Assembly (NCBI GenBank): GCA_003218375.1
Contig: QHNH01000016.1
Coordinates: 149,707-182,944, forward strand
DNA: 33,238 nt
Reading direction: 5' to 3'
From: Verrucomicrobiota bacterium
Lineage (GTDB): Bacteria; Verrucomicrobiota; Verrucomicrobiia; Chthoniobacterales; UBA10450
Shown one piece after another: positions 2,233-29,224 of the stretch (its first letter is position 1; the number at the start of each line of letters is the position of its first letter). The position numbers and the translations under genes are program-made. Below the pieces are notes generated by a model. It saw only the letters and a list, made by a program, of their open reading frames with translations. It ran no database searches and was not told the DNA's origin.

Positions 2233-2274
2233 GCCGTCACAAATAAGCGCAATTGACTCAGGGGCAACGGCAGA

Positions 2275-2404
2275 AAGCACCAAGCACCAAGCACCAAGCA
2301 CCAGAGAAGCACCAAGCTCCAAACATCAAAACGATCTGCGGCAATGCGTTGGAGCTTGGAATTTGGAGCTTCTCTGGAGCTTGGTGCTTGGAGCTTGGAG
2401 CTTT
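2275..2404. repeat. Inverted repeat, family C (copy 1)
   Basis: The left side is built of short tandem units (CACCAAG, repeated) ending in AGCTCCAAA. The right side is their reverse complement (TTTGGAGCTT, CTTGGTGCTTGG). The whole can fold into a long imperfect hairpin. It fills most of the space between the peptidase-like gene and dapF. A second copy with the same units lies at 9474-9607. No coding capacity or transposase is associated with it. Confidence 0.85.
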
Positions 2405-3251: not shown

Positions 3252-3262
3252 GGCTCTTCAAC

Positions 3263-3336
3263 TGTAGCGGCGGTCTATGACCGTCGCTCGAAATCGTAAC
3301 AAGGAAAATACTCGGCGGTCATAGACCGCCGCTACA
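3263..3336. repeat. BIME-like inverted repeat, family A (copy 1)
   Basis: Two perfect 21-bp inverted arms (3263-3283 and 3316-3336) begin and end with TGTAGCGGCGG / CCGCCGCTACA. Each arm contains its own mini-hairpin CGGTC-TAT-GACCG. The element starts 11 nt after the dapF stop and ends 4 nt before the dapA ATG, filling the intergenic space. Related copies lie at 15081-15107 and 25510-25580. Confidence 0.92.
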
Positions 3337-3340
3337 GAAA

Positions 3341-4219
3341 ATGTTTCGAGGAACTTTTACCGCGCTCGTGACTCCGTTTCGCGACGGCGAAATCGACGTG
3401 CCGGCGCTCGAGGCGTTAATCGAAGGCCAGATCGCCGACGCCGTCAGCGGAATCATCGCGGTCGGCACGACCGGGGAATCGCCGACGCTTTCCGCGGCGG
3501 AGCGCGAGCAGGTCATTCGGATCGCAGTTGAGATTGGGAAAGGCCGCTGCCAGGTCCTGGCCGGGACCGGATCGAATTCCACCGCCGCCACGATCGCGGC
3601 GACGCGCGCAGCGGAGAAAATGGGCGTCGACGGAATGCTGATCGTCGCGCCCTACTACAACAAGCCGAGCCAGGAGGGACTCTTCCGGCATTTCCAGGCG
3701 ATCGCCCAGGCGACCGCCGCGCCGATCGTGCTCTACAATATTCCCGGCCGCTGCGCGGTCGATATCGGACCGGAAACGGTCGAGCGCCTCGCCATGGATT
3801 GCGCGAACATCGTTTCGATCAAGGAAGCCGGCGGAAGCGTCGATCGCGTGAGTGAATTGCGGGCGCGGTTGCCGGAAGCGTTTACGATTTTGAGCGGCGA
3901 CGATTCGTTGACGCTGCCGTTTCTGTCGGTCGGCGCCGTCGGCGTCGTCAGCGTCGCTTCGAACCTTTTTCCGGCCGAAGTCGTCAACCTGGTCCAGGCG
4001 TTTCGCGCCGGCGACACCAAGAGCGCGCGCGATCAGCACCTGAAAATGTTGCCGATCTTCAAGGACCTTTTCATCGAGCCGAATCCGGTGCCGGTGAAGA
4101 CGGCGCTCTCCTGGCGAGGGGTGATGTCGGCGGAATGCCGGCTGCCTTTGTGCGAAATGACGGCGGCGAACCAGGCGCGCCTGCGCAAAACGCTCGAAGC
4201 TTTTGCCGGAACGGAGTGA
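3341..4219 (+). CDS. dapA: 4-hydroxy-tetrahydrodipicolinate synthase
   Basis: Condenses pyruvate with aspartate semialdehyde, the committed step of lysine/diaminopimelate synthesis. It is a class I aldolase TIM barrel. The Schiff-base lysine is Lys161 in 'IVSIKEAGG'. The proton-relay residues are Thr43/Thr44 in 'GTTGES', Tyr106 in 'APYYNKPS' and Tyr132 in 'VLYNIPGR'. Length (292 residues) is normal. The ATG at 3341 is only 4 nt from the arm of repeat A, and no Shine-Dalgarno is visible, so initiation may depend on coupling to dapF or on the hairpin. The stop overlaps the dapB start as GTGA. Confidence 0.97.
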   Translation: MFRGTFTALVTPFRDGEIDVPALEALIEGQIADAVSGIIAVGTTGESPTLSAAEREQVIRIAVEIGKGRCQVLAGTGSNSTAATIAATRAAEKMGVDGMLIVAPYYNKPSQEGLFRHFQAIAQATAAPIVLYNIPGRCAVDIGPETVERLAMDCANIVSIKEAGGSVDRVSELRARLPEAFTILSGDDSLTLPFLSVGAVGVVSVASNLFPAEVVNLVQAFRAGDTKSARDQHLKMLPIFKDLFIEPNPVPVKTALSWRGVMSAECRLPLCEMTAANQARLRKTLEAFAGTE

Positions 4220-7427: not shown

Positions 7428-7523
7428 TGTCATCCCGAGCGCAGTCGAGGGATCTCTTACTTTGTCTTGCTGCCAGCGCCGGGCAGAAAAATTAGAGGTG
7501 TCTCGACTGCGCTCGACGTGACA
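7428..7523. repeat. Inverted repeat, family E ('CATCCCGAGCGCAGTCGAGGG' type)
   Basis: Arms at 7428-7456 and 7495-7523 share TGTCA at the outer ends and GAGCGCAGTCGA in the centre. Each arm has an inner stem: CCC/GGG on the left and, read in the same orientation, GTC/GAC on the right. The two arms therefore differ by paired changes. When translated in one frame the left arm gives HPERSRG, a string often met in environmental ORF calls. It lies between two convergent genes. Confidence 0.88.
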
Positions 7524-7544: not shown

Positions 7545-8153
7545 TCACCAGTTCTTAATCCATTTCGTTTGGTTCGTGCCCGGTGCACCATCGCCAATAC
7601 TCCATAGATCGAAGGTTGGGTTGAACCCGTTTTTTGTGGGATCGGAAGCCTTCATCGTGGAGTAGGCGTAAGGATTTCCAAATGGATCGCGAATCGAGGT
7701 CACGGCCTGAGTTTGATCTTGGGGACTCAGTTGGGTTGGTTTGAAAGGAAAATATGTCTTCGTCTCTGCTGCTCTGTTGTTGTCTGAATCGCCGCTCAGG
7801 TATTCGTATAACTTCAAGCTTGGCGCTTCGTAATTTGAAAGAGTCGTCGTAGTAACATCAAGGTTGTCGGTCACCCCATCTCGAGGATACACCCCGTTAT
7901 CCGCCTTGTAATTCTCCAGCGCGGCCGAGATCGCCGCGATCTCGGCCTCGGCCCGCGAACGCTTTCCTTTCTTCTGCACGTAACTGGAAGTCGCGAGAAT
8001 GAGTCCCGCCAGAATCAGAATGATCACCATCACGACCAGGAGCTCGACGAGGGTGAACGCGGACGCGGCGCGAAATGACGAATGACGAATGACGAATGAC
8101 GAACATTCCCGTTTCGTCATTCCTTCGTCATTCGTCATTCGGGAATTCGTCAT
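7545..8153 (-). CDS. gspG: Type II secretion GspG-like major pseudopilin
   Basis: The prepilin signature 'SA|FTLVELLVVMVIILILAG' is at residues 31-50: a hydrophobic helix with Glu at mature position 5. 'KGKRSRAEAEIAAISAALENY' and a C-terminal 'DLWSIGDGAPG' typical of GspG follow. The -1 residue is Ala instead of the usual Gly. The only in-frame ATGs (8153, 8138, 8120) lie inside repeat B, so the 21-32 residue leader is encoded by the repeat. ATG 8153 is 14 nt after the gspF stop, suggesting coupling. Mature product about 170 residues. It assembles the pseudopilus powered by the adjacent ATPases. Confidence 0.85.
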   Translation of the reverse strand: MTNSRMTNDEGMTKRECSSFVIRHSSFRAASAFTLVELLVVMVIILILAGLILATSSYVQKKGKRSRAEAEIAAISAALENYKADNGVYPRDGVTDNLDVTTTTLSNYEAPSLKLYEYLSGDSDNNRAAETKTYFPFKPTQLSPQDQTQAVTSIRDPFGNPYAYSTMKASDPTKNGFNPTFDLWSIGDGAPGTNQTKWIKNW

Positions 8154-9473: not shown

Positions 9474-9607
9474 AAAGCTCCAAACTCCAACATCCAAGCT
9501 CCAAAGAAACACCAAACTTTAAGAAACTAATCGTAACGTCCTTCGCGTTGTTTGGAGCTTGATGTTTGGAATTTCTCTGGTGCTTGGAGCTTGGAATTTG
9601 GAGCTTC
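9474..9607. repeat. Inverted repeat, family C (copy 2)
   Basis: Units AGCTCCAAA and CCAAGCTCC on the left (9474-9520) are answered by TTTGGAGCTTG, GGTGCTTGGAGC and TTTGGAGCTT on the right (9551-9607). Same composition and layout as 2275-2404. It fills the space between gspF and the downstream-copy gspE, ending about 3 nt from the gspE stop codon. Confidence 0.85.
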
Positions 9608-11306: not shown

Positions 11307-11423
11307 CTGGGGAGCGCACGCGCCTCGCGTGCTGGCGAGCGCGCCCTCGCGATCGCGAACTTTTCCGAAGATTGTTTTGGCGAGGGCGCCAAAACCAGCA
11401 CGCGAGGCGCGTGCGCTCCCCAG
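11307..11423. repeat. BIME-like inverted repeat, family D (copy 1)
   Basis: Perfect 29-bp arms at 11307-11335 and 11395-11423 are separated by a GC-rich centre. Each arm contains its own perfect hairpin GCACGCG-cct-CGCGTGC. The centre holds further short palindromes such as GGCGAGGGCGCC. One end is 8 nt from the ATG of the downstream gspE. The element at 29103-29224 has the same plan. Confidence 0.92.
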
Positions 11424-15080: not shown

Positions 15081-15107
15081 GTAGCGGCGGTGGATGACCG
15101 CCGCTAC
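15081..15107. repeat. Family A repeat, single-hairpin copy
   Basis: GTAGCGGCGGT (15081-15091) and ACCGCCGCTAC (15097-15107) form a perfect 11-bp stem with a 5-nt loop. It has the outer sequence of the long family A copies but only one unit. It ends 11 nt before the ATG of the barrel gene (minus strand) and starts 11 nt after the stop of the propeller gene. Confidence 0.85.
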
Positions 15108-25500: not shown

Positions 25501-25509
25501 GTTTTCTTC

Positions 25510-25580
25510 TGTAGCGGCGGTCTATGACCGTCGCATTCTCTTATGTATCAAATCGGCGACGCTCATAGAGCGCCGCTACA
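25510..25580. repeat. BIME-like inverted repeat, family A (copy 3)
   Basis: Arms of 25 bp at 25510-25534 and 25556-25580 differ at two positions only. The left arm has CGGTCTATGACCG, while the right arm in the same orientation has CGCTCTATGAGCG, so the two differences keep the arm's own small stem. It fills the phoU-pstB gap: 1 nt after the pstB stop and 9 nt before the phoU start. Confidence 0.92.
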
Positions 25581-25581
25581 G

Positions 25582-26403: not shown

Positions 26404-27503
26404 GATAGACGACTCCGGCTTCGTTCTCGTAAAACAATCGATGTGAGCGCGATCAGCATCACGAGAAAAAGAAAGACGAACGCGCTGCCGTATTGGACCC
26501 GCTCCGTGTATTCGTTTTGCGGAATCTTCGAGCTGACGACGTAAATGTGATAGGGCAACGCCATCACGCCCTGGAAAAAGAAATCGGTGAAGCGCGCGAC
26601 CTGCCAGGGCATTTCATCTTTCATCGCGTAGGCGGCGGTGAACATAATCGGCGCCGTCTCGCCCGCCACTCGCGCGATGCCGAGAATCGACGAAGTCAGA
26701 ATTCCCGGCAATGCGTAAGGCAAAACGTTTTTGCGGATCGTTTGCCATTTGCTGGCGCCGAGGGCGAGCGAGCCTTCGCGTAAGCCTTGCGGCACGGCCC
26801 GGAGCGATTCCTCGCTCGCGGTAATGATCGCCGGGAGAACCATGAGCCCGAGCGTGAACCAGCCCGCGATGAGCGACACATTCCAGCCGAAGAAAATCAC
26901 GAACAATCCAAAACCGAAGAGACCAAAAACGATCGAGGGCACACCGGCGAGATTGAGGATCGCGATGCGAACCAGCCGGATGAGCGGCCCGTTCCGGCTG
27001 TATTCGCTCAGGTAAATCGCGCTGCTGATCCCAATCCCGAGCGCGAGCGCCATCGATCCGATCACGAGCAGCGCCGTCCCCACGATGCACGGCCAGATGC
27101 CGCCCGCCGAGTAGGCGACACTCGTCGCTTCCACTTCCACTCCGGGATGCACGCTTTTCCAGTCGCGGAACTCGCGATCGCCCAGCGTCATTTTCTTTCC
27201 CGCGAAGTCGAAAACGTAAAGCGTCTGCGGCGCCTGGCTCAGAAACGCCACGTTAATAAAAGGCGCTGTCCTCGTGAACACCGTGCGCCCGCCCTTGATG
27301 CCGATGTCGAGAAAGATATAAGTGGCCGCGGCCAGGATGAGATAGGTGGCGAGCCGGAAGATCCAGAAAGTCAGCGCTTCGAGGAAACGTCCGCGGCCAA
27401 ATGACGAATGACGAATGACGAATGACGAAGGAGAGCCTGCGTTCGAAGCCGTTTCGTCATTCGTCATTCCTTCGACATTCGTCATTCGAGCTTCGTCATT
27501 CAT
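26397..27503 (-). CDS. pstA: Phosphate ABC transporter permease with repeat-derived N-terminus
   Basis: Permease with BPD-type core: '[38 protein letters not shown]' and the EAA-like '[36 protein letters not shown]'. TM1 is '[22 protein letters not shown]', followed by a periplasmic stretch of about 90 residues. ATG 27503 lies 5 nt after the pstC stop. The first 35 or so residues ([12 protein letters not shown] ... [10 protein letters not shown]) are encoded by repeat B and do not resemble any permease. An in-frame start further upstream (27557) overlaps pstC. No ATG lies between the repeat and TM1. Confidence 0.93.
27401..27503. repeat. Inverted repeat, family B (copy 2)
   Basis: Four tandem ATGACGA units (27401-27431) on the left and TTCGTCATT / TCGTCATTCGTCATT units (27452-27503) on the right. 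It is the same as 8071-8157, and again begins a few nucleotides downstream of a stop codon (pstC, minus strand) and runs in frame into the next gene. Confidence 0.9.
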
Positions 27504-27508
27504 CTGCT

Positions 27509-29102: not shown

Positions 29103-29224
29103 GCTCCGGGTAGCGCGCGCGTCTCGCGCGTTGGTTTCGGCGTCTCGCCGAAACAAGCTTTCAGAAAAGTCCGCGATGGCGAGACGTCATCGCCAACGCG
29201 CGAGACGCGCGCGCTACCCGGAGC
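29103..29224. repeat. BIME-like inverted repeat, family D (copy 2)
   Basis: Perfect 32-bp arms (29103-29134 and 29193-29224) each hold a CGCGCG...CGCGCG mini-stem. The centre adds a perfect 9-bp hairpin GTTTCGGCG-tct-CGCCGAAAC (29134-29154) and a partial one near 29178-29194. The right arm overlaps the end of phoR and supplies its stop codon. Confidence 0.9.

Follow-up and report, generated by a model that had tools for sequence, protein, structure and literature searches.

A GTAG-type REP family with paired stem changes in a Verrucomicrobiota genome, its probable RAYT transposase, and RAYT domains in the reading frames of RecG, CarB and MetH

The short GTAG REPs of Stenotrophomonas maltophilia, which belong to REPtron Sm with its group 3 RAYT, consist of the GTAG tag, an 8-bp palindrome and a 3-nt loop, 23 nt in total (PMC8266576). 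In vitro, REPs of this layout are cleaved at a CT dinucleotide, and the GTAG tag is needed for cleavage. Much of the cleavage activity is lost upon introduction of a mid-stem mismatch, and the effect of swapping stem bases for their complements is milder (PMC8266576). Paired changes in the stems of such elements have been reported before. Nunvar et al. (2010) found that modified REPs in BIMEs retain their palindrome, which they took as a hint that complementary mutations are selected (PMC2817692). Sub-families that differ in which complementary residues occupy the stem, GTAG-1 to GTAG-24, were distinguished by Di Nocera et al. (2013), who already placed Verrucomicrobia (O. terrae) among the GTAG-REP-rich hosts (PMC3733652).

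The elements described here, which we refer to as family A, resemble the S. maltophilia REPs in their GTAG tag, 8-bp palindrome and 3-nt loop, in the two inverted REPs that flank a RAYT, in a CT at the presumed cleavage position, and in that pairing in the middle of the stem appears to matter. They differ from them in the sequences of stem and loop and in their Verrucomicrobia host, the likeness being one of layout. When compared by description, family A also shares complementary stem changes with GTAG-1 to GTAG-24 (PMC3733652) and with the Stenotrophomonas BIMEs (PMC2817692), as well as the arrangement in head-to-head dimers, the variable spacers and a GTAG that provides a TAG stop codon. The REPINs of Pseudomonas fluorescens (PMC3116915), too, are two inverted REPs that move as a unit with one RAYT; compared to them, family A has about 18 doublets and a spacer that is not conserved. 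The paired-change phenomenon was thus already described for REPs in 2010, and family A is a further case of a known REP type.

The window, i.e. the whole stretch of 33,238 nucleotides that was analysed, corresponds to positions 149707-182944 of contig C42 in a host genome (G000) of 3.96 Mb and 52 contigs, which belongs to a Verrucomicrobia lineage of probable soil origin. The family A copies of the window are all intergenic and have the following features.

Copy 1, left REP arm: 3262-3287, plus strand, between dapF and dapA.
Copy 1, right REP arm: 3312-3337, minus strand, ending 3 nt upstream of the dapA start codon.
Copy 2: 15081-15107, no strand, one compact palindrome GTAGCGGCGGT-GGATG-ACCGCCGCTAC that carries a tag at each end.
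Copy 3, left REP arm: 25509-25534, plus strand, CT followed by the GTAG tag and the 8-bp stem CGGCGGTC / GACCGTCG (one G.T pair) with the loop TAT.
Copy 3, spacer: 25535-25555, no strand, sequence not related to that between the arms in other copies.
Copy 3, right REP arm: 25556-25581, minus strand, carrying the compensating pair, CGGCGCTC tat GAGCGTCG.

The left arm of copy 3 reads CTGTAGCGGCGGTCtatGACCGTCGC and the right arm, when reverse-complemented, CTGTAGCGGCGCTCtatGAGCGTCGC. According to the first-pass annotation, these arms differ at two positions that pair with each other. This is precisely what we observed, since the arms differ at exactly 2 of 26 positions, by which CGGCGGTC-tat-GACCGTCG becomes CGGCGCTC-tat-GAGCGTCG, and both differences belong to stem pair 6 of 8. 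The accompanying proposal that each arm is kept as a structure of its own holds up for family A: the single arms of copy 3 fold at -9.0 and -9.3 kcal/mol, well below shuffles (z-scores of -5.0 and -3.8), and the paired changes preserve the arm hairpin. In the fold of the entire 73-nt copy, both differences appear as mismatch bubbles in the duplex between the arms. Because the paired changes break this arm-to-arm duplex, they serve the single-arm hairpin and not the long inverted repeat, and for the same reason the whole 73-nt inverted repeat was ruled out as the conserved unit. In copy 1, the end of the right arm lies so close to dapA (3312-3341, including the start codon) that the ribosome-binding region of this gene would lie within the REP.

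Further copies of family A were collected from the host genome by pattern searches, which returned 37 tagged arms as opposed to 1 in the reversed control. Nearly every arm consists of GTAG, an 8-bp stem and a 3-nt loop, the GTAG being located directly 5' of the palindrome, in agreement with the definition of GTAG REPs, which calls for a palindrome of 20-40 bp. The approximately 18 doublets, which is few for REPs, are mostly arranged head to head with their GTAG ends pointing outward and are separated by unrelated spacers of, in most copies, about 13-40 nt. A CT dinucleotide immediately precedes GTAG in 25 of 30 arms. At the stem pair that differs in copy 3, a G is present in 29 of the scored arms and is faced by C in all 29, and a C is present in 2 arms and is faced by G in both (Fisher p-value of 0.002). 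Stem pair 7-21 of family A strongly tolerates G.T.

It has to be considered that the two arms of copy 3 may be of separate origin, a C-type REP (GGCGCTC/GAGCGCC) having been joined to a G-type REP with no double change in place. This is a serious possibility, though less likely than not. Both C-type arms of the host genome have a G-type partner, C-type arms are numerous in some sister genomes (among the matches listed, for example, in G001 and G012), and hybrid BIMEs have been described in Stenotrophomonas (PMC2817692). On the other hand, C-type arms make up only 2 of the 37 arms in the host genome, and the right arm of copy 3 is otherwise identical to the left arm.

Covariation was examined in 83 genomes of the same family, in searches that fixed the 5' half of the stem with A, C or T at the position concerned and left the 3' half free. 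Among the matches listed, the 5'-C sites come from 16 of the 83 genomes, and in REP context 93 of 98 of these sites have G opposite and 5 have C. When the 67 distinct REP-like arms were considered, the pair was Watson-Crick in 56, as compared to a mean of 28 and a maximum of 43 in shuffles; when the partner position was slid along the same arms, Watson-Crick pairs were obtained in at most 39. The pair types GC, CG, AT and TA are all present, and mismatched intermediates remain (among the matches listed, 5 C-C sites and several A-C sites). The covariation among genomic copies that the first-pass annotation had put forward as a check was thus found well above the shuffled background. It should be noted that copies within a genome are related and that expansions were counted, so that the covariation is strong evidence for pairing rather than a count of events. 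The independent double changes are fewer than the covarying sites that were counted.

A search of the host genome for Y1/RAYT transposases, which had likewise been suggested, identified a RAYT of 158 amino acids on contig C3 (85672-86145; CDS at L039:1447-1923) that sits between family A REPs, and the TAG stop codon of which is the TAG within the tag of the downstream REP. This protein scored 95.8 bits against the NCBIfam model REP_Tyr_transpos (NF047646; cut-off 80) and 19.2 against the IS200 model NF033573, which is under the cut-off of 55. It matched Pfam Y1_Tnp over the cut-off, and its best, and only, match in the PDB was TnpAREP (4er8). The motifs PDHLH (HUH) and YVRENP (a single catalytic tyrosine with an asparagine four residues on) are present in this protein (P0001). 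As judged from its sequence, the C3 RAYT is one intact HUH single-tyrosine transposase, flanked by the same REPs as those of family A.

RAYT homologs were found in 70 of the 83 family genomes. RAYTs on the branch of the C3 enzyme are accompanied by the family A REP, and the other groups by other GTAG hairpins (CGCTTCGC/GCGAAGCG, CGGYGCTTG and CGCCTCG). In the RAYT tree, the A-type RAYTs cluster, and only 3 changes of REP type occur, which is as few as four types allow. At RAYTs of other lineages, the REP architecture is retained and the lower stem differs, for example GCGCGGTC/GACCGCGC or CCGGGGTC/GACCCCGG. Within 350 bp of RAYTs, a perfect 7-bp hairpin followed 55 of 152 GTAGs; in the background more than 700 bp away from RAYTs, the rate was 0.0007 for any tetranucleotide, and GTAG was not among the leading ones. 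An A-like RAYT with 57% identity and the diverged lower stem GCGCGGTC/GACCGCGC was also encountered on a contig labelled Acidobacteria gp5 (L080), which represents either a transfer or a binning error. Elsewhere in the host genome, several more genes for RAYTs or Y1 transposases (L031, L032, L035, L037, L038 and L041) adjoin palindromic repeats of other kinds, for example CCCAGCGCTTCAGCGCTGGG and GGAGCCGGCACGCCCTCGTGCC.

The paired changes could, in principle, be a mutational by-product of template switching during replication, by which a mutation in a hairpin is copied across the stem without selection for the hairpin. This mechanism is documented for hairpins (PMC8794818), and it would produce double changes in one step, for which selection is not needed. 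However, mutation alone predicts neither the co-divergence of stem and RAYT nor the retention of the tag and the CT site, and as a full explanation template switching is unlikely. Nevertheless, it may supply the double mutations of family A.

The gap between pstB and phoU, in which copy 3 is located, lacks the element in 7 of 7 congeners, both flanking genes being alignable at this site. Copy 1 and family E (see below) appear to be common to the host genome and G020, as judged by the matching distances between the two. The absence of copy 3 bears on the view that what is conserved in each arm is an RNA hairpin, which after transcription would act as a stem-loop and stabilise or end the mRNA between genes of one operon. 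In favour of this view, some copies lie between operon genes, for instance dapF and dapA or pstB and phoU, and stem pair 7-21 is frequently a G.T. Yet the pstB-phoU gap does without the element in the congeners, the GTAG tag and the CT are kept although they lie outside the stem, and the spread of copies is explained by the RAYT association. We therefore regard this view as rather improbable, although a secondary RNA effect of the arms could still exist.

The first-pass annotation had likened both family A and family E to REP/BIME elements mobilised by RAYTs. For family A this reading is upheld by the tag, the doublets and the CT and, at the level of sequence, by the architecture, the covariation, the cognate RAYT, the co-divergence of RAYTs and REPs, and the lack of the element at the orthologous site of related genomes. 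It does not extend to family E, which has no GTAG, no RAYT nearby and arms that fold like shuffles. Family A thus most likely represents non-autonomous REP doublets of the BIME/REPIN type that are moved in trans by the cognate C3 RAYT, family E being a separate miniature element. Points against this account are the low number of copies and the persistence of mismatched intermediates, and the G.T tolerance of stem pair 7-21 would be equally in keeping with an RNA hairpin. It is very probable that the family A hairpin is recognised by a transposase whose gene lies elsewhere in this genome, and this would be why each arm is kept as its own hairpin. The unit read by the RAYT would be the single arm, folded as a single strand with the GTAG tag, the 8-bp stem and the 3-nt loop, and cleavage would probably occur at the CT immediately 5' of the tag. 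A mismatch in the middle of the stem would spoil this substrate, and only arms in which a second mutation has restored pairing would stay mobile or keep their form, and the outcome would be arms distinguished by paired changes. From its homology with RAYTs of known biochemistry, the C3 enzyme is expected to bind and cleave in a strand-specific manner, and selection on the hairpin is the expected cause of the covariation. Selection on the folded single-strand substrate is the simplest account of the paired changes.

Family E is represented in the window by one copy (7428-7523).

Family E, left arm: 7428-7459, plus strand, beginning TGTCATCCCGAGCGCAGTCGAGGGATCTC.
Family E, right arm: 7492-7523, minus strand, reverse complement beginning TGTCACGTCGAGCGCAGTCGAGACACCTC.

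Six differences separate the two arms within their first 29 nt. The statement that these differences form two compensating pairs is correct for four of the six (CC/GG versus GT/AC), and the remaining two, T6C and T26C, break pairs. Among 150 matches listed across the family genomes, 71 arms were of the GT/AC type and 63 of the TC/GA type, and both pairs were Watson-Crick in 141; of the departures from the two main types, 7 were compensated and 9 were broken or wobble. The left/right difference is common to the whole family of genomes; it therefore did not arise recently in the window copy, but is a fixed, family-wide design. When folded singly, family E arms are no more stable than shuffles. 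The arms begin with TGTCAT and have no GTAG tag. In the comparison for a CGTC tag, the right arm of the window reads ACGTCGAG and the commonest arms among the matches listed read ATGTCGAG or ATTCCGAG. A link to RAYTs was rejected, because no family E arm was found close to the RAYT loci scanned, one arm lying at 1.6 kb from a RAYT (L079). A literature search for the core sequence gave no match among the papers covered. We regard family E as a distinct miniature element with inverted repeats, for which no mover was found. It is very improbable that families A and E are both ordinary MITEs that were once moved by a DDE transposase and are now passive. In favour of this reading, both are short with terminal inverted repeats, and E fits the description as it stands and may be such a remnant; for A, the tag, the single-arm hairpins, the RAYT flanked by the same repeats and the co-divergence speak against it.

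The window also contains members of a second REP family.

Second REP family (GGAG tag), left arm: 11309-11335, plus strand, GGGGAGCGCACGCGCCTCGCGTGCTGG.
Second REP family, right arm: 11395-11421, minus strand.
Second REP family (GTAG variant), left arm: 29108-29134, plus strand, GGGTAGCGCGCGCGTCTCGCGCGTTGG, with a stem pair changed from A-T to G-C relative to 11309-11335.
Second REP family (GTAG variant), right arm: 29193-29219, minus strand.

This family has 61 arms in the host genome, tagged with GGAG or GTAG, and among the RAYTs of this genome that were examined it flanks only those inside metH and recG. Other large inverted repeats of the window (2274-2404 with 9474-9606, and 8070-8149 with 27396-27504) consist of short tandem units (AAGCACC/AAGCTCC and AATGACG), the arms being of opposite orientation.

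Three Y1 transposase domains of the host genome lie within the long open frames of RecG, CarB and MetH, without stop codons.

In-frame RAYT domain: C11:24128-24331 (locus L042).
In-frame RAYT domain: C25:57360-57662 (locus L034).
In-frame RAYT domain: C52:6469-6693 (locus L033).

In-frame RAYTs recur at the same sites across the family (loci L157-L216). In 49 family genomes, and leaving aside frames cut by contig ends, most RecG frames measure about 690-760 or 835-989 amino acids and most CarB frames about 1071-1130 or 1318-1388. Where the longer forms were read, most had a RAYT at one site, which is located after RT.ARQEESGPLPLF in RecG and before RRAKKLGFSDRQL in CarB. The inserts in RecG and CarB are bordered by REP-coded peptides, such as GSARVSRVGDGVSPSRT. 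Against the curated RAYT model (cut-off 80), the MetH insert scored 90.3 bits, and the RecG and CarB inserts scored 74.1 and 73.2 bits, just under the cut-off. The catalytic HUH and Y...N are retained in 30 of 31 in-frame inserts. In eight pairs dN was far below dS, and the in-frame RAYTs of RecG, CarB and MetH are under purifying selection. The tree of the inserts contains one CarB lineage and one RecG/MetH lineage, the latter including one CarB insert (L199).

Some genomes (L189, L197 and L207) have short, scar-like in-frame stretches at the insertion site instead. At CarB loci L196, L197, L189, L200 and L207, short REP-like peptides occupy this site in the proteins of some relatives. The CarB of L197 resembles that of L196 minus the RAYT, in frame, as if the insert had been lost.

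Palindromes that are read in frame in DNA-repair and other proteins are known from intragenic REPs and the Rickettsia palindromic elements (PMC3733652). Unlike these, the present cases comprise whole RAYT genes together with REPs in the RecG, CarB and MetH frames. Text searches for earlier reports of in-frame RAYTs in recG, carB or metH, with subscription journals outside their scope, found none. We lean towards the view that in this Verrucomicrobia family the RAYTs and REPs are in-frame residents of recurrent permissive sites in the conserved housekeeping proteins RecG, CarB and MetH, comparable to inteins without known splicing, which would be catalytically intact and may serve REPs elsewhere.

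Within a single lineage, family A shows the covariation of the hairpin, the co-divergence of RAYT and REP and the empty orthologous site together, which makes it possible to tell selection on the hairpin apart from repair by mutation. The in-frame RAYTs matter more, and are more surprising, than the family A REP/RAYT pair. If our view of them is true, they would represent a novel mode of persistence for domesticated transposases, and residence in RecG, CarB and MetH would be a reason why the transposase is not easily lost.
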